Source: Anadara kagoshimensis (taxonomy: Eukaryota > Mollusca > Bivalvia > Arcoida > Arcidae). From it: a DNA stretch of 64,000 nt. Both the position numbers and the translations under genes were made by a program. The notes under the pieces were generated by a model. That model searched no databases. It had not been told where the DNA came from and was given only the letters and a program-made list of their open reading frames with translations. Shown one piece after another: positions 123-60,818 of this stretch. Each line of letters begins with the position of its first letter. The first letter of the stretch is position 1. Location: contig CM037870.1 of assembly GCA_021292105.1 (NCBI GenBank), positions 63,858,083-63,922,082 on the forward strand. Direction: 5' to 3'.

Positions 123-220
123 CGTATTTAACTTTAAACAAGACTTCACCAGCTGATACAGACAATTTGTAGCTGAATCACGTCCACCTGGCAACACCCA
201 ACGAAACCAAGAACACAAAT

Positions 221-632
221 CAAAAACAAACATACTAATCCGTGTCCGAACCACAATCCAAAAGCAAAGTAAAAACGGAACTGACAAATTAGGTTAGACT
301 CATGAACAGGGAAGTGAGACCGGGTGCTTTGGAAGGGTAAGCGCCTCCTGTTTAGCTAGCTACACCCGCCACGTGTGTTATCATTATTGTGTGAAAGGAA
401 TATGGAACTATGGGACCTCAAATGTATCCAGGGCAATCCTGGACACAGAAACATCAAACTTATCAACAATACTGCGATGACGGCAATAAAACTTTTTGAA
501 GGCCTTGATAAGCCTAGGCTTGCAATATCCCTGGGTCAATAGTTTATTTGCAAGTAGCCTGCTTCGTTGTACAAAGTCCCTGTAGTGGGAACAAGCTCTA
601 TCACAGCGTAAGTACAACATGAGCATATTGAT
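221..632 (-). pseudogene. PT retroelement fragment: RT C-terminus plus 3' tail
   Basis: Read on the minus strand, 626-408 encodes the C-terminal thumb part of a Penelope-type reverse transcriptase; CKPRLIKAFKKFYCRHRS and DKFDVSVSRI are recognisable. It runs straight into the family's 3' tail, marked by the 'gtagctagctaaacagg' block, the CACGTG-type block and the terminal 'ttgtgattcggacatgg' block. The catalytic part is absent, so this is a 5'-truncated dead copy. The upstream end is not precise. Confidence 0.8.
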
Positions 633-2644: not shown

Positions 2645-3720
2645 TAATTTCAGAGACACTAAACTTATTGATCTATTCTGTCAACTTCCCTTCTTTAACG
2701 ACTTCATAGGTTTCAATATAATTTAAATATGTAAAAATTAATTATTTATATATAAATACTTAAAAATTTTCGAGTAAAAAAACGTTTCCGACACACAAAA
2801 ACAAGCACTTCTCTATAAACTGTCAGACTATTTATGACGCACACGAAAGACTACATTTGAAACTTTATGACAAACGCGATGACTTCAATTTTTCTATTGT
2901 CAACTTTCCTTTTTTATGCAGGAATATACCTGCTTCTGCTTATGGTGTATTTGTTTCCCAATTAATACGCTATGGTAGAGCTTGTTCCCACTACGGGGAC
3001 TTTGTACAACGAAGTAGACTGCTTGCAAATAAATTGTTGACTCGAGGATATTGCAAGCCTAGGCTTATCAAGGCCCATAAACAGTTTTATGGCCGTCATC
3101 ACAGTATTGTTGACAAATTTGATGTCTCTGTGTCCAGGATATATTTGACGTCTCGTAGTTCCATGTTCCTTTCACACAATTTTGATTACACACGTGGCGG
3201 GTGTAGCTAGCTAAAGAGGAGGTGCTTACTCTTCCGGAGCACCCGGCCTCACTTCCCTGGTGGAATTTCACGTGTCTAACCTAACTTGTCAGTTCCAAAG
3301 TTTTTACTTTGCTTCTTGATTGTGATTCGGACATGTATTATTATGTTTGTTTTTGATTAAGTATAAATTGTGGAATGTATAATTCGCATTTCCACTTTGA
3401 TTTATCAGCTAAAGTTCACTGTATCAATATTCTTTATTCAGCAAGCTAAACAAAACATAAAACAATGCACGTCATAAAAGGCATTTGTATACTATAATGA
3501 AAATTCCTGATTTAGAAAAAATAAAAAAAATATATACAGTGTATGTAGCATTAAGCATTTCAAATATCTACAGGACAAATCAAAACTAGTGTTCGAAATA
3601 TGTTTGGCACCCCTTCCTTTGCTTTGTGTGACTGTTGATGTCATTTACTGGTATTGTGTCATGCTCTTAGTTCTGATGATAATTGCTAACTACATGCTTT
3701 TTCGCTTAAGAATTTCTGTC
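2645..3720 (+). repeat. AB dispersed repeat, copy 2, split by a PT insertion
   Basis: 2645-2827 matches the first part of AB copy 1 (gacactaaacttatt ... cacttctctataaactg) and the match resumes at about 3361 (ataaattgtggaatgtataa ...), continuing to a B block at about 3610-3715. The 530 bp between is a PT copy, so the PT insertion is younger than this AB copy. Confidence 0.7.
2828..3360 (+). pseudogene. PT retroelement, 5'-truncated, with complete 3' tail
   Basis: Frame 2857-3210 encodes the thumb/C-terminal region of the Penelope-type RT: KLYDKRDDFNFSIVNFPF, GVFVSQLIRYGRACSHYGDF, ANKLLTRGYCKPRLIK and GRHHSIVDKFDVSVSRI. A frameshift after SRI moves the end to a stop at the 'tgtagctagctaa' block. 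The 3' tail runs to 'tgtttttgatta' at about 3360. It lacks the fingers and palm, so it cannot be active, but it is the best-kept C-terminus plus tail in the window. Confidence 0.85.
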
Positions 3721-5345: not shown

Positions 5346-5367
5346 ATATTAATCCATAAAGATTAAT

Positions 5368-6387
5368 AATAAAAAACAAACACACTAATCCATCTCCGAA
5401 TCACAATCCAGAAGTATAAAATTTTTGAACTGACAAGTTAGGTTAGACACGTGAACTTCCACTAGGAAAGTGAGACCAGGTGCTCCGGAAGGGTAATCAC
5501 CTCCTGTCGAACTAGCTACACCCGCCACGTGTGTAATCAAAATGGTGTGAAAGGAACATGGAACTATGAGACGTCAAATATATCCAGGCTAATCTTGGAC
5601 ACAGAGACATCAAACTTATCAACAATACTGTGATGACGGCCATAAAACTTTTTGAGGGCCTTGATAAGCCTAGGCTTGCAATATCCCTGAGTCAACAATT
5701 TATTTGCAAGCAGCTTACTTTGTTGTACAAAGTCCCCGTAGCGGGAACAAGCTCTTCCATAGCGTATTAATTGGGAAACAAATGCACCATAAGCAGGAGA
5801 AGCAGGTATATTCCTGCATAAAAAAGGAAAGTTGACAATAAAAAATGAAGTCATCACGTTTGTCATAAAGTTTCAAATGTAGCCTTTCGTGTGCGTCATA
5901 ATTCAGGTATAAGTCTAAATATGAAGCAGATTTTGAGGAATCAGTCGTGTCTTTTATTTCAAGCTCACTAGGATAGATGACATTTACATAGTCTCCAAAT
6001 TTAGGATTGTTAAGAGACAGAACTTCATCTATATATCTGTATGTTGAGTTGAATGATTTGGCGACAGTCTTCTTTCCAGATTTAACAAGGTTCTGCATAA
6101 ATTCTGCTTCAAAAGAATAAAGAAACACATCAGCAAGCAATGGTGCACAGTTTGTACCCATTGGTATACCGAATGTTGCTAAAAAAACTATATTACCAAA
6201 CGCAACAAATATGTTATCTATCAAAAACTCCAACATTTTGTTGATGGTATCTTCAGTATATTTTGTTTGGAATCTTTGATGCTTGTCAAAATAACCAGAA
6301 TCCCTGTTCAGCACCAGATATGTGTATCTTGACTTACCGTTTTTGTAAAAGAAAGACAAGTGAATAATTTCTTTATTTTTTTTTTTT

Positions 6388-6426
<39 letters not shown>

Positions 6427-7040
6427 CTTTTTTACATGAGATAAAGTATTAGAAGCAAGATGTTCAAGTAATTCTTTAGAATTTTTGAGAATCAACATTT
6501 GATTGATTCCAGATGTAGAATATACTTTTTCTGAATAAGACTGAAGACCATCTTTGACGATTGTCAAAATTTGTGTTAGAGTTGCCGATAATGATTTAGT
6601 AGTACATTTAGATGAGCCCGATATATATCTTTCCTTGTATGGATTTTTATGGAATTTGGGAATGAATACAAGTAAGGATCTTCCTTTTTAAGATTGATAC
6701 CGATAGACTCGAGAACTCCCCTATGGTTGGAAAGAACTTCATCTTTGGTAAAATTAGTTCTAGTATATGCAAGGTTATTTAAAATACTATCTAAACCAAG
6801 CTCCTTAACAAGGCATTCAAGGTAGAATCTCTTACAAACGAGAATAATGTTGTTTGAAGCCTTATCAGCTGGGACAAAAACATATTTGTTGTGTATGTCT
6901 GTTAGAATTGCCTTGATTTCTGGATCCTTGTGTACTGAAGACGGTTCAGTACTCATATACTCTTTAAGTTTGGCAATCCTAGTTTTAACGAAAGATCTCA
7001 CAACCTTTATCCAGTCTGATAAACATCTTCTAATTTAGCC
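5368..7040 (-). pseudogene. Penelope-type reverse transcriptase element, longest copy
   Basis: Minus-strand remnant of an RT. In order: N-terminal part at 7001-6650 (FVPADKASNNIILVCKRFY), a 1-nt frameshift near 6650 leading into SGSSKCTTKSLS, then SGINQMLILKNSKELLEHL (6567-6430), a poly-A tract at 6423-6375, then palm and thumb from 6359. In that last frame GIPMGTNCAPLLAD is at residues 64-77, YIDEVLSLNN at 109-118 and YLDLYLNY at 147-154. A 2-nt deletion near 5843 shifts the frame, and the thumb continues at 5866-5564 (GRHHSIVDKFDVSVSKI). The 3' tail spans 5563-5368. The segment expected to carry the first catalytic aspartate (of the DFSTLYTTIP type) is missing where the poly-A lies. Motif order favours a Penelope-like element; no GIY-YIG endonuclease was seen. 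Dead copy. Confidence 0.85.
6375..6423 (+). repeat. Poly-T tract inside the RT pseudogene
   Basis: About 49 nt of T with a single G. On the coding strand it encodes a lysine run in place of the expected motif between LLEHLASN.LSHV and KEIIHLSFFYKNGK. Confidence 0.9.
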
Positions 7041-14284: not shown

Positions 14285-14432
14285 TACACTTATCAAGGTC
14301 CTTAAAAGTTTTAAGGCCGTCATTTTAATATTGTCGGTAAGCATGATGTGTCTTTAACAACCATTATTCTGGATATATTTAACATCCCAATAGTTTTATT
14401 CAATTCTGATTTCACACAACTTGAGGTGGATA
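14284..14432 (+). pseudogene. PT thumb fragment
   Basis: 'cttatcaaggtccttaaaag', 'aaggccgtcattttaatatt' and 'ctggatatatttaacatccc' correspond to the C-terminal RT coding end. Cut off at about 14432, where a minus-strand tail begins. Confidence 0.7.
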
Positions 14433-14555
14433 TAGTCAAAAACAAACATACTAATCCATGTCCGAATCACAATCCAGAAACAAAGTCAAAACTTTAGAAC
14501 TGACAAGTTAGGTTAGACACGTGAACTTCCACCAGGGAAGTGAGGCTGGGTGCTA
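14433..14555 (-). repeat. PT 3' tail, short form, inverted
   Basis: Starts 'caaaaacaaacatactaatc' and runs to 'gaagtgaggctgggtgct'. It abuts a plus-strand PT piece on each side, implying insertion into or recombination with another copy. Confidence 0.8.
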
Positions 14556-14565
14556 GTCTGACAGG

Positions 14566-14630
14566 GTGTGCATACTCTTCAGGAGCATCCAACCTCACTT
14601 ACTTGGTAGATTTATTTGCCAGTTTTTAAT
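14566..14630 (+). repeat. PT 3' tail fragment
   Basis: 'actcttcaggagcatccaac', 'ctcacttacttggtaga' and 'ttgccagttttt' match the middle of the tail. Confidence 0.6.
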
Positions 14631-14975: not shown

Positions 14976-14989
14976 AGTACATACATATT

Positions 14990-15166
14990 GTTTATTACAC
15001 ATGTGGTTGGTGTAGCTAGCTAAACCGGAGGTGATTACTCTTTCGGAGCACCCTGCCTCACTTTCATGGCGAAAGCTCACGTGTTTAACCGAACTTGTTA
15101 TTTGCAAAGTTTTACATTGTTTCTGGATTGTGATTCAGACATAGATTAGTTTGATTTTGATTATAT
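14990..15166 (+). repeat. PT 3' tail, long form
   Basis: Starts at 'ttattacacatgtggttggt' and includes 'gtagctagctaaaccggagg', 'tttcggagcaccctgcctca', CACGTG and 'tctggattgtgattcagaca'. Confidence 0.85.
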
Positions 15167-15279
15167 TAAGTAGTCACTATTACTTCCATATCAAAGTATT
15201 CAGTGACACGGCATCTAAGATAGTGTTGCTTATCATTCCAATTATCTATTATTGTTGGAGAAAAAATTCTTTTTTAGCT

Positions 15280-15427
15280 TGATTTCAGACGTGGCAGATG
15301 ATCAGCTTTCCACGCAAGCGAGCAAGAGATGCTAACCCGCCCAGAGCACCCTACATCACTTCCCTGATGGAGTCCACGTGTGTATTTAAAATCTTTTGCC
15401 AGTTTTCAATGTTTTTACTTTGTTTTT
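15280..15427 (+). repeat. PT 3' tail leading into a minisatellite
   Basis: 'ttcagacgtggcag', 'agagcaccctacatcac', 'ttccctgatggagtccacgt' and 'tttgccagttttcaatgttt' are the tail in its normal order. Its terminal 'gggattgtgatttgaacatg' is the first unit of the array that follows. Confidence 0.8.
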
Positions 15428-16140
15428 GGGATTGTGATTTGAACATGGACATGTATGCTTGTCTTTGACTTTTGGGATTGTGATTTGAACATGGACAGGT
15501 ATGCTTGTCTTTGACTTTTGGGATTGTGATTTGAACATGGACATGTATGCTTGTGTTTGACTTTTGGGATTTTGATTTGAACATGGACATGTATGCTTGT
15601 GTTTGACTTTTGGGATTTTGATTTGAACATGGACAGGTATGCTTGTCTTTGACTTTTGGGATTGTGATTTGAACATGGACAGGTATGCTTGTGTTTGACT
15701 TGATTTTGATTTGAACATGGACAGGTATGCTTGTGTTTGACTTTTGGGATTTTGATTTGAACATGGACAGGTATGCTTGTCTTTGACTTTTGGGATTGTG
15801 ATTTGAACATGGACAGGTATGCTTGTCTTTGACTTTTTGGATTGTGATTTGAACATGGATAGGTATGCTTGTGTTTGACTTTTGGGATTGTGATTTGAAC
15901 ATGGACAGGTATGCTTGTGTTTGACTTTTGGATTTTGATTTGAACATGGACAGGTATGCTTGTGTTTGACTTGATTTTGATTTGAACATGGATAGGTATG
16001 CTTGTCTTTGACTTTTTGGATTTTGATTTGAACATGGACATGTATACTTGTGTTTGACTTTTGGGATTGTGATTTGAACATGGTATGCTTGTCTTTGACT
16101 TTTGGATTTTGATTTGAACATGGACGGGTGCGTTTGTGTT
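15428..16140 (+). repeat. 46-bp minisatellite made from the PT tail end
   Basis: About 15 units: 'tttgggattgtgatttgaac', 'atggacaggtatgcttg', 'tctttgact'. GGG positions at 15428, 15474, 15520, 15566, 15612 and 15658 show an exact 46-bp period; a few later units have 6-bp or larger deletions. Because 46 is not a multiple of 3, the array reads open in all three minus-strand frames, giving overlapping 256-, 231- and 208-codon frames with the same repeating peptides. These are artefacts. Confidence 0.95.
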
Positions 16141-17539
16141 TGGTTAAGGCAGATTCATAAAATAGAAAGATCTATTTTGTTAGTTGTTTTTGAAATTCAA
16201 ATTTGATATGATTTTTCCACAATTTTTAAAGATCAGTTGTGAATTGTCGACGTATAGCAACATATATCCTGATTGATGACTTGAATACTTTTTTAAAATA
16301 AAAATGGAACTATTTCACTTGATGGTACATTGATACATTTTTAATTATGACTTGTGGAGAACAAAATGAACGTGTCATAAAATAAAAATTGACAATTTAT
16401 GGATTGATTTCAATTTTATTCGAGTGAAAATCCGCCATGCAGTGTAATTTGCAGGATAAATAAATCCGTAAAGCTTGTCAACACTCCTTTTCAAAAGATA
16501 TTATTTATTTTTCCCCTGTCAGTGTTAATTCCTTGAGCTAATTGGTATATATACCCAACCCAGAATAAATACCATGCATACAAATACTAAATCTTTAAAT
16601 ATTTAATGACTTAATTCAATATAAGAATATGATTTCCATCTCATTATCGCAGTAGAAAACAATACACATTTTAGTTATTTATGAAGTTCTATATAGCAAT
16701 CCTTTGTAATGACATCTAATTATCCCTCTCTCAAGGAATATATAAATATTTAAATTTCAAATTTTTACAATAAAATTTGACATTAAAGAGGTTATAGCTC
16801 ACACTTCAGGTCTTATTGACTCTGGTGTGTTCTGGTCTGAATTGTCATGGTTTGGCGTAGTAGTAGTTGAAGGGTTTTCTGAAAAGTGCTGAAAATGTCA
16901 AAATACTTATTTTAAGAATAATCTCAACGGATTAAGATTCAAATATTTGAGTGTTGATATTCAAACTTTACAATATGTAGACTCTCAATATGTGTGTTAA
17001 TTACGCTGTACTGATTTTTAACGAGCGATTATATATAAAAAAAGGTAAAGATGAAAATGTAAAAAAAAAAAAAATTGCGAAAATTTAATTGAAGGTGTTC
17101 ATTAAGAACACCAACAAAGGTATCAGACCTTTTGTATATCCCTTGTTTCATTCATCCTGCCGACTTGAAGTCATGGGTATACCAATAGACGAGGGTATTG
17201 ACGTTGTAATGAACTGACACTGTATACGACCAGGTCCATACGCCTTTCACAATTCCAATCACCAAGTAAGCTTTAGAATATTGTACATCTGTAATAGGCG
17301 CGAAGCTATCAATTGTTCTTCTTATGCGTTGGTTAATTGGTCATCCTAACTTAACATTTAACTGGGAGAACAATCCTCTAACTATGTCCTTTGTCAAAGT
17401 CAACAGTCAATCCAACCCATTTTGTTGGATTATGCCGACGGCATCATCAATGCAAAATCTTTTAAATAATGCCAGTTGACATAAAATATTTAAATTGTTA
17501 AATAAGAATAAATGTAATTATTTTATCACTTATGCTATT
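16141..17539. other. No gene identified
   Basis: AT-rich, with a more GC-balanced part at about 17130-17430. There the minus strand is open for about 62 codons and ends at about 17155. No family was recognised and no start or splice context was clear. Confidence 0.4.
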
Positions 17540-17718
17540 AATTTCACACGCTGTGGTTGTAGCTAGCTAAACAAGGGGAGATCAACCTTGAAGAGCATCT
17601 GGTCCTATTCTCCTGGTGGAGGTTCCCCTGTTTAAATTTAACTTGTCAAATTTCAAATTTTTAATTTGCGTTTTGAATTGTGGTTTGAACATGGAATAGT
17701 ATACCGTTTTTGTTTTGG
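17540..17718 (+). repeat. PT 3' tail, long form
   Basis: 'gctgtggttgtagctagcta', 'gaagagcatctggtcc', 'cctggtggaggttcccct' and 'gaattgtggtttgaacatgg' appear in order, diverged. Confidence 0.8.
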
Positions 17719-17925
17719 TTACAACTTGTCTGTTATATATTACTGATTCTGATATCATTCGTTTTGCATTGTTTTTTTACTATTAATTTGTACACTACAT
17801 GTATTCAACATGTATGTGCTTACTCTAAGAAGTTGCAGTTTGCTTCCCCTATCAAAACATTATCATGACACCGGTTACCTAGGAGACAACTTAAAATGAA
17901 GCAACTGGCTTAAGGTTAAAACATG

Positions 17926-17997
17926 CTCCAGACAGGATTGGAACTTATGATCCTTTTAGTGAATCCAGCGTTGTACCAACTGAGCTACATGCTTCTA
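17926..17997 (-). mobile_element. tRNA-like SINE head
   Basis: The reverse complement has an A-box-like 'tagctcagttgg' and a B-box-like 'agttccaatcc' at tRNA spacing. The T and D arms are imperfect, and no working anticodon or acceptor pairing could be confirmed, so this is probably a SINE head. Confidence 0.55.
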
Positions 17998-18389
17998 TTT
18001 ATTTACATTAATTTGTTTTATTGATCACATTTTCAGTATGACTACTATTTGTAATCTCCTCTAAAACTTTTTTTGGCTGAAAAAATCTAGATATGGCGAA
18101 ATCAAGCCATTTACAATATTTCGCTGAAAATACCTTTTCAAAAAATACATCAAGAATTTAATGGAAGAGGGTGCTAAAGGAAGTCAAACAACATTTGTTA
18201 TCCACAAAATGTTTTACCACTTCACTGGCTTTGTATTTCTCTACAGATAACCCATCTTAAGTTTGGGATTCCGTAACACCGTTGTCTTTATCATTTACTA
18301 AACATTTGTCTTTATTTTTTGTTCTTTTGTTGTACAACGTTCTTTTGATCGATTCATCTCTGTTTTTGAACAACATATTTCTAAGAACA

Positions 18390-19220
18390 CATCTTTAGGA
18401 GGCATTTTTAATAATGCTTTGTCCACTGTCCGACAGTAACAGTATTAAAAGACTTCAAGTAACATTACAAGGAATATAGCTTTTGAAGGTTTATTTTTAT
18501 AATGCCTGGTTACGCAAATTTCTGCAATACGTGGGAAAGAACTTCAATTTTTTAAGAATATAGCATTTGGCGATATGGTTACATGAGGCTTCTGATAAAA
18601 TCTTGGCATAACATACTTCTAAAAAATGGTCGGAAGGAACACCATTCTCAATAATATATAGAATTAGGAGGAAACTTTAAAAATGTTTGTTTTGTTAAAT
18701 ATACGTCACCAAGACAAACACCACTAAGTTTGTTTTTAATTTTAATTCCCTAATAAATGACGTGTTTATGACATAGTGTACTAATCCCATACCTTTCTGA
18801 AATACTGACGGGAAAGAAATAGAATTTTTAGGAATTCTTTACAATGCTCTGTCACGCAGACTTCTAAAACAATTGATAGTAAAGTACCCAAAGTTTGTTT
18901 TCGAATATAGAAGTTTGGAGGAATGATGTAATAATGCTTGGCACTCACACTTTTGAAACACTGACCGGAAAGAACCCTATTGTCAAGAATAGAGAATTTG
19001 GATGAATTCTTTAAAATGCGTTGCTTTCTGAAACAATGACCGTAAAGAATATCGATTGTATTTGCATGTTTAAAGAATAAAGAAGTTAGATGAATCCTTG
19101 AACAGATTGGTCACGCAAACTTCTAAAACCTGAGTAGGAAAGATGTCTGATTTAGTATAATTATAGCATCTCGGCGAATTCTTTAATGATGTTTAATTAC
19201 GTACTGGGGAAAAGCCCAAA
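18390..19220 (+). repeat. Decayed satellite, about 115-130-bp unit
   Basis: The blocks 'ggtcacgcaaacttctaaaa', 'gaccggaaagaac', 'agaatagagaatttgg' and 'gaattctttaataatgct' recur roughly seven times in the same order, each diverged. Confidence 0.6.
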
Positions 19221-19694
19221 TTATTTTCTTTAGGAGATGGTGTAATGATAGCTTAAATATTCTACCATCTGTGGCATTCTTCAGAAGAATTTCGTCCAAC
19301 ATAAAGTGGATGGATTTTGTCATATTTGTTTTGCTCCATCACCTTTTCGCGTTGTTGTTGAGTAATAAAACCACGGACGTGTGTGAAGACGTGTGGGGAT
19401 CAAAGACCTCTAGTTTTAACGATGGTCACAAAAGTCAAATATGATATTAGTATCCGTGTCGGAAATTTGTCATATATTGGGCTTTGATAAATTAGAACAC
19501 ACACATTCTGTGAATTCATCTTTTATTTTTCTATTATTTGTTTTTAATTTTTAAGGAATTTTGGAATGTGTAAATTGTAACTATCATTAAAACTGTTTAA
19601 AGAGTATATTTTTGTAAAACAAAATTGAAGTAAAACTTTTAAAATTCTTTTCATGGTAAATGTAAAAACGGATGAGAAATGAGAATTAAGTTGG
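19221..19694. other. No gene seen
   Basis: AT-rich interval before the second minisatellite. Confidence 0.4.
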
Positions 19695-20490
19695 ATTGGG
19701 ATTTGATTTGGTTTGAACATGTATTGGTTTGCCAGTTTTTGGGAGAGTGGTTATACTTTGCTATTGGGATTTGATTTGGTTTGGACATGTATTGGTTTGC
19801 CAGTTTTCGGGAGAGTGGTTATACTTTGCTATTGGGATTTGATTTGGTTTGGACATGTATTGGTTTGTCAGTTTTCGGGAGAGTGGTTATACTTTGCTAT
19901 TGTGATTTGATTTGGTTTGGACATGTATTGGGTTTGCCAGTTTTCGGGAGAGTGGTTATACTTTGCTATTGGGATTTGATTTGGTTTGGACATGTATTGG
20001 TTTGCCAGTTTTCGGGAGAGTGGTTATACTTTGCTATTGGGATTTGATTTGGTTTGGACATGTATTGGTTTGCCAGTTTTCGGGAGAGTGGATATACTTT
20101 GCAATTGGGATTTGGTTTGGTTTGAACATGTATTGGTTTGCCAGTTTTCGGGAGAGTGGTTATACTTTGCAATTGGGATTTGATTTGGTTTGGACATGTA
20201 TTGGTTTGCCAGTTTTCGGGAGAGTGGTTATACTTTGCTATTGGGATTTGATTTGGTTTGGACATGTATTGGTTTGCCAGTTTTCGGGAGAGTGGATATA
20301 CTTTGCAATTGGGATTTGGTTTGGTTTGAACATGTATTGGTTTGCCAGTTTTCGGCAGAGTGGATATACTTTGCAATTGGGATTTGGTTTGGTTTGAACA
20401 TGTATTGGTTTGCCAGTTTTCGGGAGAGTGGTTATACTTTGCAATTGGGATTTGATTTGGTTTGGACATGTATTGGTTTGTTTGGTTTTG
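19695..20490 (+). repeat. 68-bp minisatellite made from the PT tail end
   Basis: Eleven units starting 'gccagttttcgggag' at 19731, 19799, 19867, 19936, 20004, 20072, 20140, 20208, 20276, 20344 and 20412, a 68-bp period. The unit parallels the last part of the PT tail: 'gccagttttc', then 'actttgcttttgggatt', then 'ggacatg.attggt'. Open frames of up to 230 codons on both strands arise from the repeat and are not genes. Confidence 0.95.
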
Positions 20491-21139
20491 ATAGGCTAGT
20501 TTAGTTGGAATTGTAATTTTGACATGCACTGGATTCATTGTTTCTGTTGAGCGATGGATATCATTGTAAGAAGAAAATGAATATTTGAACAACAATGAAA
20601 AATGAAGAGTTTGCCTGCCAAATGATATTGTTGTAGAGATTAGAAATACCTTAGTCATTCACATAGATAAATGAAATTCTAAACTTTTGAACTAAATTGA
20701 AACATATACGTAGATATAGGGAGCTGTTTATAACTAAATATGATTTTTATTAATGTCCTATCATCGCTTGCTGAGACTAAGATGTGTCTTCTTTAGCATA
20801 ACTCATTCACTCTAATCCATTAAGCCGGACATTTTTCACCTCAGAATGTAAATTCTACTTTTGAAACTTGATAGATGTATTTATATATATCATTATGTAT
20901 TGTTACAGAGAGAAAAAATTATCAATGAAATTTAGAGATTAATGGCCAATATTTTAAAATATTCAAAAGTAATGTTTGTATAAGAGTTCTTTATGTACAA
21001 CGGGTGATTAAATATAAAACTGACTATTTTTCATCGCTATATGACACCGTGTCCCACAAAAATAAAATGTTTCTTATACGAGGGAAAATGTTACTTTTTT
21101 AATTTATGGGACTAGTCTCGCTATCTTCAGGTGTTAACA
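20491..21139. other. No gene seen
   Basis: AT-rich; no repeats recognised. Confidence 0.4.
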
Positions 21140-25802: not shown

Positions 25803-26540
25803 AAGTTCATTCAACTCAACATACAGATATATAGATGAGATTCTGTCTCTTAACAATCCTAAATTTAGAGGCTATGTGAATGTCATATCCTAGTGTGTTT
25901 GAAATAAAAAGATATGACTGATTCTTCAAATGCTGCTTCACATTTAGACTTATACCTCAATTATGACGCTCGCGAAATACTACATTTGAAACTGCATGAG
26001 AAGCATAATGACTTCATTTTTCTATTGTTAATTTTCCTTTCTATGCAGGAATATACATGCTTTTCCTAATTATGGTGTATAAGTTTCAAATTTAATACGC
26101 TATGATAGAGCTTTTCCCCACTACGACTACTTTATACAACTAAAGAAAGCTGCTTACAAATAAATTATTGACCCAGGATATTGCAAGCCTAGACGTATCA
26201 GGGCCCTCAAAAAAGTTTTATGGCCGTCATCACAGTATTGTTGATAAGTATATATCACCCGGCCTCACTTCCCTGGTGGAAGTTCACGTGTCTAACCTAA
26301 CTTGTCAGTTCCAAAGTTTTTACTTTGCTTCTGGATTGTGATTCGGACATGGATAAGTATGTTTGTTTTTGATATCTCTGTGCCAACGATTGCCCTGGAT
26401 ATATTTGACGTCCCTTTGTTCTATGTTCCTTCCACTCAATTTTTACTACACAAATGGCGGGTGAAGCTAGCTAATCAGGGGGTTCTTACTTTCACTCTAA
26501 AATGTGATTCTGATATTAATTAGTATGTTTGTGTTTGATT
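25803..26540 (+). pseudogene. PT RT copy (motif C to tail) with a nested tail inside
   Basis: Starts at STYRYIDEILSLNNPKF (25815-25870) and runs through the thumb (gtttcaaatttaatacgct, ttattgacccaggatattgc, tttatggccgtcatcacag) to about 26250. It resumes at about 26369 with 'atctctgtgccaacgattgc' and a short tail (gtgaagctagctaatcagg). Several frameshifts and stops. The 118 bp between is a separate PT tail insertion. Confidence 0.8.
26250..26368 (+). mobile_element. Nested 5'-truncated PT tail insertion
   Basis: 'acccggcctcacttccctgg' to 'aagtatgtttgtttttgat' interrupts the host copy between its 'gttgataagta' and 'tatctctgtg'. ATATC occurs at both edges, a likely target duplication. Confidence 0.75.
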
Positions 26541-28834: not shown

Positions 28835-29055
28835 ATCGTCGTCCATGTCCATTTCATTCTCAATTTTAATTACACACGTGGCGGTCTGGGTCTAGCTAGT
28901 TAAACAGGAGGCGCTAACCCTTCTAGAGCTCTCGGCTTAACTTCCGTGTAGGACATTCACGTGTATAACTAGATTTGCCAGTCTTCAAAGTGTTTAGTTT
29001 ACTTTTGGGATTGTGATTTGAGCAACATGGGACTGGCTTTTCGTGTTTGAGATTA
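28835..29055 (+). repeat. PT 3' tail, long form
   Basis: 'ttacacacgtggcggtctgg', 'ctagctagttaaacaggagg', 'ttccgtgtaggacattcacg' and 'ttgggattgtgatttgagc'. Confidence 0.85.
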
Positions 29056-29084
29056 CCACAACTTCTGAATATCGACAATTTAGA

Positions 29085-59843: not shown

Positions 59844-60818
59844 TCATGTAAGGAATGTTTCAAATGCAGATTTATCAGCTAGCATACAACTAAAGGTATA
59901 AAGAACACCAACAAGTAAATTTAACTTAGCAACCTTTTGTGGAAGTCCACATAACAAACCGCGGCGGAAATACCTTTCTTGATCAAAAGCTAAAAATATA
60001 CAGGCAGCAGGCAAAAACATCCATTTAGAGAAATGTAAACCCATTAAACAAAACAGTAAAAATGGGACAAACATTAAAAGTGTGAATAAAAAATAGGATC
60101 CAGTTCTTCCAAGCAAGATGGCAAGAGTCACTATACCGGCTTTACTGTCCTCGTCCATATCACGAGAATTGTTAGCATGTAATATAGCTTCTGTGTTTAG
60201 AGTCAATGGAATTGCGAATAATACTGGGCTGAGCGACAACTGTCCAGTCTGTGACAAGAAGGCAAATATGACAGTTAGTGGTCCAAATGAAAAAAATATT
60301 AATAAATCTCCCAGGGCTATATACTTCAACCCAAGTCCTCCAGTGTAGAGAAAACTGCTGGATAATCCACCAAAATACAATAAAGCTAAATGTTCCATTT
60401 TAGCAGGAGAGATAACTGATATGAGAAAAAATCCTATACACCCAAAAATATAGAAGATTCCTCCTAATCTTGCGACATCATTAGGCTGCAGTATGTGGTC
60501 AACTAGAGTTCTGTCATCACTATTTTGACTGTCTATACCTCTAACAAAGTCAAAATAAGTGTTCACTAAGTTACCAGCTGCGTGAACTGATAATGCTGTA
60601 AGGCATGTTACTAAGAACACAACAACACTAAACTCGTCAGATATCTTGTATGCTAGTGTACTTCCCAATGCTACAGGTATGAAAGAGGCTGTAAAACTCC
60701 AGGGTCTCAGAGCTGCAAAATATTTCTTCAATCTGTATGAAACAGCCTCTCTGTTGAGAAATGATGATTTCTTGTTATAATTGTCATTTTTATGAATTCC
60801 GTTTGGCACCGACTCCAT
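59844..60818 (-). CDS. UBIAD1: UbiA prenyltransferase domain-containing protein 1
   Basis: 324 residues in one uninterrupted frame; vertebrate UBIAD1 is about 338. It matches UBIAD1 nearly end to end after a divergent N-terminus: LRPWSFTASFIPVALGS at 37-53, the first prenyl-diphosphate/Mg site NLVNTYFDFVRGID at 83-96 (Asn83, Asp90 and Asp96 in place), DDRTLVD at 101-107, FGGLSSSFLYTGGLGLKY at 149-166 and LGDLLIFFSFGPL at 169-181. The second acidic site NNSRDMDED is at 216-224, followed by AGIVTLAILLG, and the tail has LPQKVAKLNLLVG. Many hydrophobic helices fit the multi-span UbiA fold. In the family the enzyme joins a geranylgeranyl chain to menadione to make vitamin K2 (MK-4), acts in ER/Golgi membranes and, in vertebrates, binds HMG-CoA reductase; these roles are inferred here. 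The start has G at -3 and G at +4. Vertebrate genes are split by an intron; none is seen here. All key residues are intact, so it is probably functional. Confidence 0.95.
   Translation of the reverse strand: MESVPNGIHKNDNYNKKSSFLNREAVSYRLKKYFAALRPWSFTASFIPVALGSTLAYKISDEFSVVVFLVTCLTALSVHAAGNLVNTYFDFVRGIDSQNSDDRTLVDHILQPNDVARLGGIFYIFGCIGFFLISVISPAKMEHLALLYFGGLSSSFLYTGGLGLKYIALGDLLIFFSFGPLTVIFAFLSQTGQLSLSPVLFAIPLTLNTEAILHANNSRDMDEDSKAGIVTLAILLGRTGSYFLFTLLMFVPFLLFCLMGLHFSKWMFLPAACIFLAFDQERYFRRGLLCGLPQKVAKLNLLVGVLYTFSCMLADKSAFETFLT

Follow-up and report, generated by a model that had tools for sequence, protein, structure and literature searches.

Minisatellites at the 3' terminus of a retroelement tail in Anadara kagoshimensis

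A 64,000-nucleotide stretch of DNA from Anadara kagoshimensis (assembly GCA_021292105.1, contig CM037870.1, positions 63,858,083 to 63,922,082 of the forward strand; hereafter, the window) contains two long minisatellites among the 18 rows reported by Tandem Repeats Finder (TRF), along with numerous copies of the 3' tail of an element that encodes a reverse transcriptase (RT). An earlier note, made from the sequence alone, held that both minisatellites arose separately from the end of this "PT" tail and that the 3' end of the element is prone to tandem growth, perhaps by template slippage during target-primed reverse transcription (TPRT). The two arrays and the tail sequences that adjoin them are:

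15276..15427 (+): ordinary 5'-truncated 3' tail entering array 1 (nhmmer match 15276-15471, model positions 14-194)
15424..16142 (+): array 1, 46-bp unit in 16.0 copies with 91% matches (TRF); the unit is the last ~46 bp of the tail, to the terminal TTTGA(C)
19695..20480 (+): array 2, 68-bp unit in 11.5 copies with 96% matches (TRF)
20480..20492 (+): tail terminus GTTTGGTTTTGAT, present once behind the last array 2 unit (read by eye)

When the units were aligned to a consensus of 36 single-copy tails (arrays excluded), the 46-bp unit scored 58 and the 68-bp unit scored 53, against means of 17.2 (maximum 27) and 17.5 (maximum 28) for 300 dinucleotide shuffles of the tail (z = 14.4 and 12.4, respectively); the reverse complement scored 12 for both. 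Both units thus derive from the tail, as the earlier note had it, and they start at different points: the 46-bp unit covers consensus positions 128-172, ending at the terminal TTTGA, and the 68-bp unit begins at position 100 (TTTGCCAG). The claim that both represent the last part of the tail is accurate for the 46-bp unit and requires correction for the 68-bp unit, which runs from TTTGCCAG to ACATG.ATTGG, ends ~13 bp short of the terminus and carries an extra stretch, GGGAGAGTGG, that is absent from the tail and occurs in 11 copies (one variant letter allowed). No tail body was seen upstream of array 2, and its unit, used as a DNA query, matched array 2 as the sole place (12 matches, in a search that skips common words). 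Each array has a locus-specific variant, TTTGAACATGG found 16 times in array 1 and GG[GC]AGAGTGG found 11 times in array 2. The ordinary tail previously seen to run into array 1 was recovered by the nhmmer match, and the previous figure of some 30 dispersed copies is about right, given that a terminal-unit profile identified 30 clusters of tail termini in the window, 5 inside the two arrays and 25 single elsewhere.

In the main class of arrays, the terminal GTTTTT of the tail is joined to an internal GTTTTT located 49 bp upstream; this word is a 6-bp direct repeat, with copies 49-50 bp apart in both consensus tails, and bounds the main-class unit. The genome (1.115 Gb, 36 contigs) was searched for such junctions; junction counts are exact matches, locus counts are estimates extrapolated from the first matches listed, and reversed control patterns yielded 0 matches in all nine genome-wide pattern searches. 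For the older subfamily, 2,922 exact matches to the 49-bp junction were identified (0 for the reversed control). The first 100 matches listed form 34 clusters in the first 38.7 Mb of contig C1, for an estimated 980 loci, and 47 of the 66 within-cluster spacings among them are multiples of 49. For the young subfamily (CTTCTGG), there were 1,229 exact junctions among 13,059 joint-pattern matches, and the first 99 of the 11,830 others are body-unit boundaries; 30 array loci were found in the first 142.8 Mb, corresponding to an estimated 234 loci, or ~2% of copies. A 46-bp class, with the boundary word TTTG (by eye), accounts for 520 exact junctions (7 loci among the first 100 matches listed). A tail consensus, used as a DNA query, gave no match in a search that skips common words.

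Thus, terminal units are joined to one another at an estimated thousand or more loci and in at least two subfamilies; the earlier observation is correct and extends far beyond what the window alone could reveal. Confinement of the arrays to one old subfamily was ruled out by the young-subfamily arrays, including the one at L067, where the spacing is exactly 49 bp over at least ten units. That arrays might be more frequent in the old subfamily (24 array loci vs. 35 body-unit places among the first 100 listed) was considered and discarded as evidence owing to exact-pattern bias: picking by an exact pattern favours many-unit arrays in diverged copies. Two array loci deserve separate mention. At C1:44116171-44127504, and perhaps beyond, closely spaced exact junctions of the 46-bp class form an array of at least 11.3 kb, a satellite-sized descendant of the tail, and at C1:4780187-4780381, a young-subfamily array has a period of 55 bp instead of 49.

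The position of arrays within the element was analyzed in a sample of 264 kb, comprising the window and 20 fetched 10-kb loci, of which two (L009 and L010) lie beside the window and the other 18 were taken at round positions spread over 14 contigs. A tail profile built from 13 hand-picked copies has 88 matches in this sample (nhmmer, E <= 1e-3). By BLAST, 3 of the 62 TRF arrays match the element, all 3 within positions 2074-2130 of 2131; array 2 is below that BLAST threshold and aligns to the tail end in the consensus alignment. In the 20 loci, 2 of the 31 tail termini have at least 2 adjacent units, namely L026 (49 bp, 8.1 copies) and L022 (49 bp, 2.6 copies), and in the window, two arrays stand against 25 other tail termini. 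Other direct repeats of the same tail served as controls: tandem junctions from the CACGTG repeat (78 bp) and from the TGGATT/GGATTG repeat (18 bp) were both absent genome-wide (0 matches each). The parent words of these controls occur 8 and 4 times and 3 and 4 times in the 264 kb, compared to 19 and 8 times for those of the 49-bp junction (array units included); they are two to six times rarer, and still number thousands genome-wide if the sample is typical. Rarity of the parents, then, does not explain 0 vs. 2,922, but it makes the contrast less exact. Taken with the genome-wide counts, the empty controls support the proneness of the 3' end to tandem growth that had been proposed.

The tail is tied to an RT element because one copy lies directly downstream of RT pieces in the window, and RT-coding sequence upstream of the tail is common to copies. 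The relevant features and further single-copy tails of the window are:

5564..7034 (-): decayed pieces of the RT open reading frame (ORF) of the element, with an A-run inserted (ORFs; 5715-6431 matches RVT_1 weakly, E 0.0079)
5363..5551 (-): 3' tail lying immediately downstream of these RT pieces (nhmmer; upstream sequence common to other copies)
3171..3365 (+): single-copy tail, the best-scoring copy (nhmmer)
215..395 (-): single-copy tail (nhmmer)
14429..14614 (-): single-copy tail (nhmmer)
14979..15166 (+): single-copy tail, 110 bp upstream of the one that enters array 1 (nhmmer)
26239..26376 (+): single-copy 5'-truncated tail (nhmmer)
28853..29063 (+): single-copy tail (nhmmer)

With a 71-residue RT piece as query, the genome offered 18,399 first-look candidates; the 150 that were scored and listed have identities of 93-100%. 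The copy at L066 has a 642-residue frame that contains a CxC stretch and the RT, and stops shortly before the tail; its RT matches Pfam RVT_1 with E 8.1e-6 and 26.1 bits (below the curated cut-off of 29.6), and YRYIDDVL is visible. In a Pfam scan of this frame, RVT_1 was the only match, no C-terminal endonuclease was found behind the RT region, and a 78-residue piece had no GIY-YIG or other match; a phmmer search of PDB sequences gave 0 matches. The CxC stretch, PPTCSCSSSPYIYGPAGHVIT, lies upstream of the RT in L066 and L068 (by eye), and the two copies may be truncated just upstream of this region because their sequences diverge there by eye. Over the element reference, copy depth is 0-1 for the first 1.1 kb and climbs to 50 in the last 100 bp, which argues for 5' truncation with a fixed 3' end, as in TPRT; most copies end at or near GTTTTTGAT. 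The tail is therefore the non-coding 3' portion of an RT element whose copies are truncated at the 5' end. Penelope-like elements of the permuted Naiad/Chlamys group have an N-terminal GIY-YIG endonuclease and a CxC motif between the endonuclease and the RT, are devoid of a C-terminal endonuclease, possess an RT that groups with telomerase RT, and insert in partial tandem or pseudo-long terminal repeat (pLTR) form. Judging by motifs and layout, the present element is probably Penelope-like.

Several further observations concern the copies themselves. The A-run in the RT frame (window ~6373-6431, minus strand) is long and reads as poly-lysine. Same-strand tail neighbours closer than 300 bp number 8, vs. 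4.05 at random (P = 0.04), and 4 after dropping 3 array pieces and 1 copy split by a miniature inverted-repeat transposable element (MITE). Such an insert, MITE-like with inverted CAGGGGTTCAAAAT ends, splits a tail at ~5965-6215 of L012 (by eye). At L038, a 5'-truncated young copy is nested in an older copy of the same element; by eye, the target lacks about 7 bases and shows no duplication, suggesting a loss of ~7 bp instead of a target-site duplication. Three RT copies on contig C4 (C4:45649639, 45650940 and 45653816) point the same way and span no more than 4.4 kb, possibly as a tandem insertion. Elsewhere in the window, at 59844-60818 (-), a single-exon ORF of 324 residues belongs to the UbiA prenyltransferase family (E 6.4e-37 in Pfam).

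Comparison of units among loci bears on how the arrays arose and grew. In a set of 140 units from 37 loci collected by fuzzy search (to which array 1 contributes only 5 and array 2 only 1), the nearest neighbour is in the same locus for 82.0 of the 137 scored units, compared to a mean of 4.6 with shuffled labels; births are therefore independent or the arrays are homogenised locally. The separate origin advanced for the two window arrays agrees with this grouping and with their different junctions. In two pairs of segmental duplicates with both flanks in common, the number of units is not the same, 3 at L063 vs. 5 at L064 and 4 at L056 vs. 3 at L057, and therefore arrays gain and lose units at the DNA level after birth. 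The duplicates L052 and L053, which are 99.3% alike, each contain 9 unit starts; the pair L043/L054 (93.8% over 516 columns) was left out of unit counts as the right ends differ. Eight further young loci (L069-L076) were also read. In L071, L073 and L075, with two or three units each, bodies resemble the young consensus at 94.6-97% (for L073, across just 33 bases); the bodies of L070, L072 and L076 are 85-87% like it and that of L074 is 92%. At L075, where the body is 94.6% and the three units are 98, 98 and 100% like the young consensus, two units have one change of their own each and the three together give the family consensus, as if the units had doubled near the time of insertion.

The account that we tentatively prefer, at close to an even chance of being right, has two steps: terminal seeding by realignment of complementary DNA (cDNA) during reverse transcription, which is inferred, followed by growth at the DNA level, which the segmental duplicates demonstrate. 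The last 46-50 bp of the tail are enclosed by an internal word A and the terminal word A', and the join of A' to A yields the unit. The nascent cDNA would copy from the RNA 3' end to A, release, re-pair with A' and copy the stretch again, such that the element delivered to the target would end in at least two units; the array could then be enlarged by unequal exchange or replication slippage, in one case to ~11 kb. We favour this account because of the terminus specificity, the absence of control junctions, the independent births in the young subfamily and the TPRT-like nature of the element. The template slippage originally put forward is retained here as the likeliest start of an array; as a full explanation it falls short, since growth also occurs at the DNA level (duplicates differ) and an expected 59-bp junction is absent.

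Several findings weigh against seeding during reverse transcription. The 59-bp junction, onto the terminus via GTTTT, has 0 matches genome-wide although the RT model expected it; this counts against a loose version of that model, at low power, given that the parent occurs 2 times in the 264 kb and the gapped pattern lacked a positive control in that search. A 24-bp internal junction likewise has 0 matches genome-wide, again with few parents and a gapped pattern that lacked a positive control in that search; the same gap syntax works in another DNA pattern search. The two 6-bp control repeats are less T-rich than the real junction and differently spaced, ~98% of young copies show no junction, and array 1 is without the GTTTTT word at its terminus. 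In the 3 large arrays that were picked without a junction pattern (array 1, array 2 and L026), locus-specific variants occupy all or nearly all units (at L026, ACATAG in 7 of 8), which fits local amplification of one founder. Finally, the units of L070 and L074 are nearer to the consensus than the body is, a pattern that neither model predicts simply, with exact-pattern picking as a source of bias.

Short-repeat slippage is the main rival of the two-step account. Here, slippage or unequal exchange between the two GTTTTT words of an inserted tail would create the array and the same process would expand it, so that DNA events alone would suffice, an explanation that we regard as less than likely, yet quite possible. 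In its favour, the unit is bounded precisely by a 6-bp direct repeat, unit numbers shift after segmental duplication, and the units of an array have variants in common; the available portion of a review gives this route as plausible for minisatellites born from transposable elements (TEs) (PMC6947457). However, tandem junctions are missing genome-wide for the two 6-bp control repeats, BLAST places all 3 of the TRF arrays that match the element at its terminus, and arrays are already present in an estimated 2% of young copies.

A narrower version of seeding by the RT, which we consider doubtful, would have this enzyme, suspected to be sister to telomerase, add repeats to the 3' end of its own element in the manner of telomerase. 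At its 3' end, the tail RNA is laid out as A-B-A' (GUUUUU-43 nt-GUUUUU), with an ACUUCC-GGAAGU hairpin upstream in the predicted fold; the hairpin is full in L040, L032 and L036, shortened in L039 and absent in L066. On such a template, cDNA might realign A to A' for several cycles at insertion, writing 46-50-bp repeats into the genome. With its altered terminal word (GTGTTTGAC), the 46-bp class might behave as a natural A' mutant and realign in a different register.

Source elements might already carry the terminal array in their RNA and pass it to their progeny. The 49-bp junction is common to many loci, and array 2, L051, L052/L053 and L061 begin mid-unit with no tail body (by eye), like a 5'-truncated copy of an arrayed RNA. 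Nonetheless, this is distinctly improbable, considering that units group by locus, the young and old subfamilies each have arrays of their own, and the young tails at L032, L036, L038, L039, L040 and L066 are single-unit. We judge it more improbable still that units are added to old tails, the element nuclease nicking them and the RT adding units of current sequence, so that arrays would be younger than their carriers. Across 10 arrays, units are nearer to the family (92.0%; array consensus, 95.5%) than bodies (84.5%), compared to 82.4% for the unit and 84.3% for the body in 27 single copies, and L070 and L074 repeat the pattern; this comparison is confounded, 9 of the 10 arrays having been picked by an exact near-consensus junction and L056 and L057 being duplicates of each other. 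Nearly all units in L026 and L041 share locus-specific changes, unlike added units of family-consensus sequence. Chance resemblance of AT-rich repeats, to which the richness of both units in T and G might point, was ruled out for both units by the dinucleotide shuffles of the tail and, with exact junctions set against 0 reversed controls, has virtually no probability.

In the microsatellite tails of long and short interspersed nuclear elements (LINEs and SINEs), repeats likewise occupy the 3' end of an element that inserts by TPRT; their units are of a few bases, compared to 46-68 bp here. The poly(A) case of such TE 3'-end repeats is described in the available part of PMC6947457. The same part recounts the proposal of Haber and Louis (1998) that minisatellites arise by slippage or exchange between short direct repeats, and gives Alu, B1, MaLR and Ogre as sources of TE-born minisatellites. 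As in the present case, the unit there lies between short direct repeats within a TE, is first duplicated and subsequently multiplies as DNA (PMC6947457, in part); what differs is that here one terminal segment has undergone this at an estimated thousand loci, in several registers, and at the 3' end in each case read. In an Anolis Penelope-like element, reverse transcription starts at two RNA-internal sites that bound a genomic 'tail', the optional tail of 30-40 bp lying between them (PMC11167929). Such elements share with ours an RT and a special 3' tail (PMC11167929; PMC3846280, available part), whereas the reports, to the extent available for the latter, describe a single optional tail and pLTR tandems, with no terminal minisatellites seen there. 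In our element, Pfam found no endonuclease, in copies that are possibly truncated.

The RTs of Penelope-like elements are the closest known eukaryotic relatives of telomerase RT (PMC12632851, available part). Telomerase and the bacterial DRT2 and DRT10 RTs use a separate non-coding RNA as template, whereas here the template would be the 3' end of the element itself (PMC12039810 and PMC12632851, available parts, which describe no terminal minisatellites). The A-B-A' template layout of telomerase-like repeat addition is present in the tail; that the RT has such an activity is a hypothesis that comes from sequence. The available parts of PMC3833285 and PMC10294476 contain nothing on retroelement-tail minisatellites or on Penelope-like repeat addition. 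TE-born minisatellites are known; recurrent seeding at one terminus at this scale is new, as far as the literature searched shows.

The points of interest are the scale, the specificity for the terminus and the telomerase-like layout. One retroelement terminus repeatedly seeds minisatellites, in at least two subfamilies and in several registers, providing a traceable route from retrotransposon to satellite. If DNA slippage is the cause, about a thousand replicate births are at hand in which to measure how minisatellites start. If the RT does the seeding, this would be a mobile-element version of telomerase repeat addition, and the link between Penelope-like RTs and telomerase would become directly testable.

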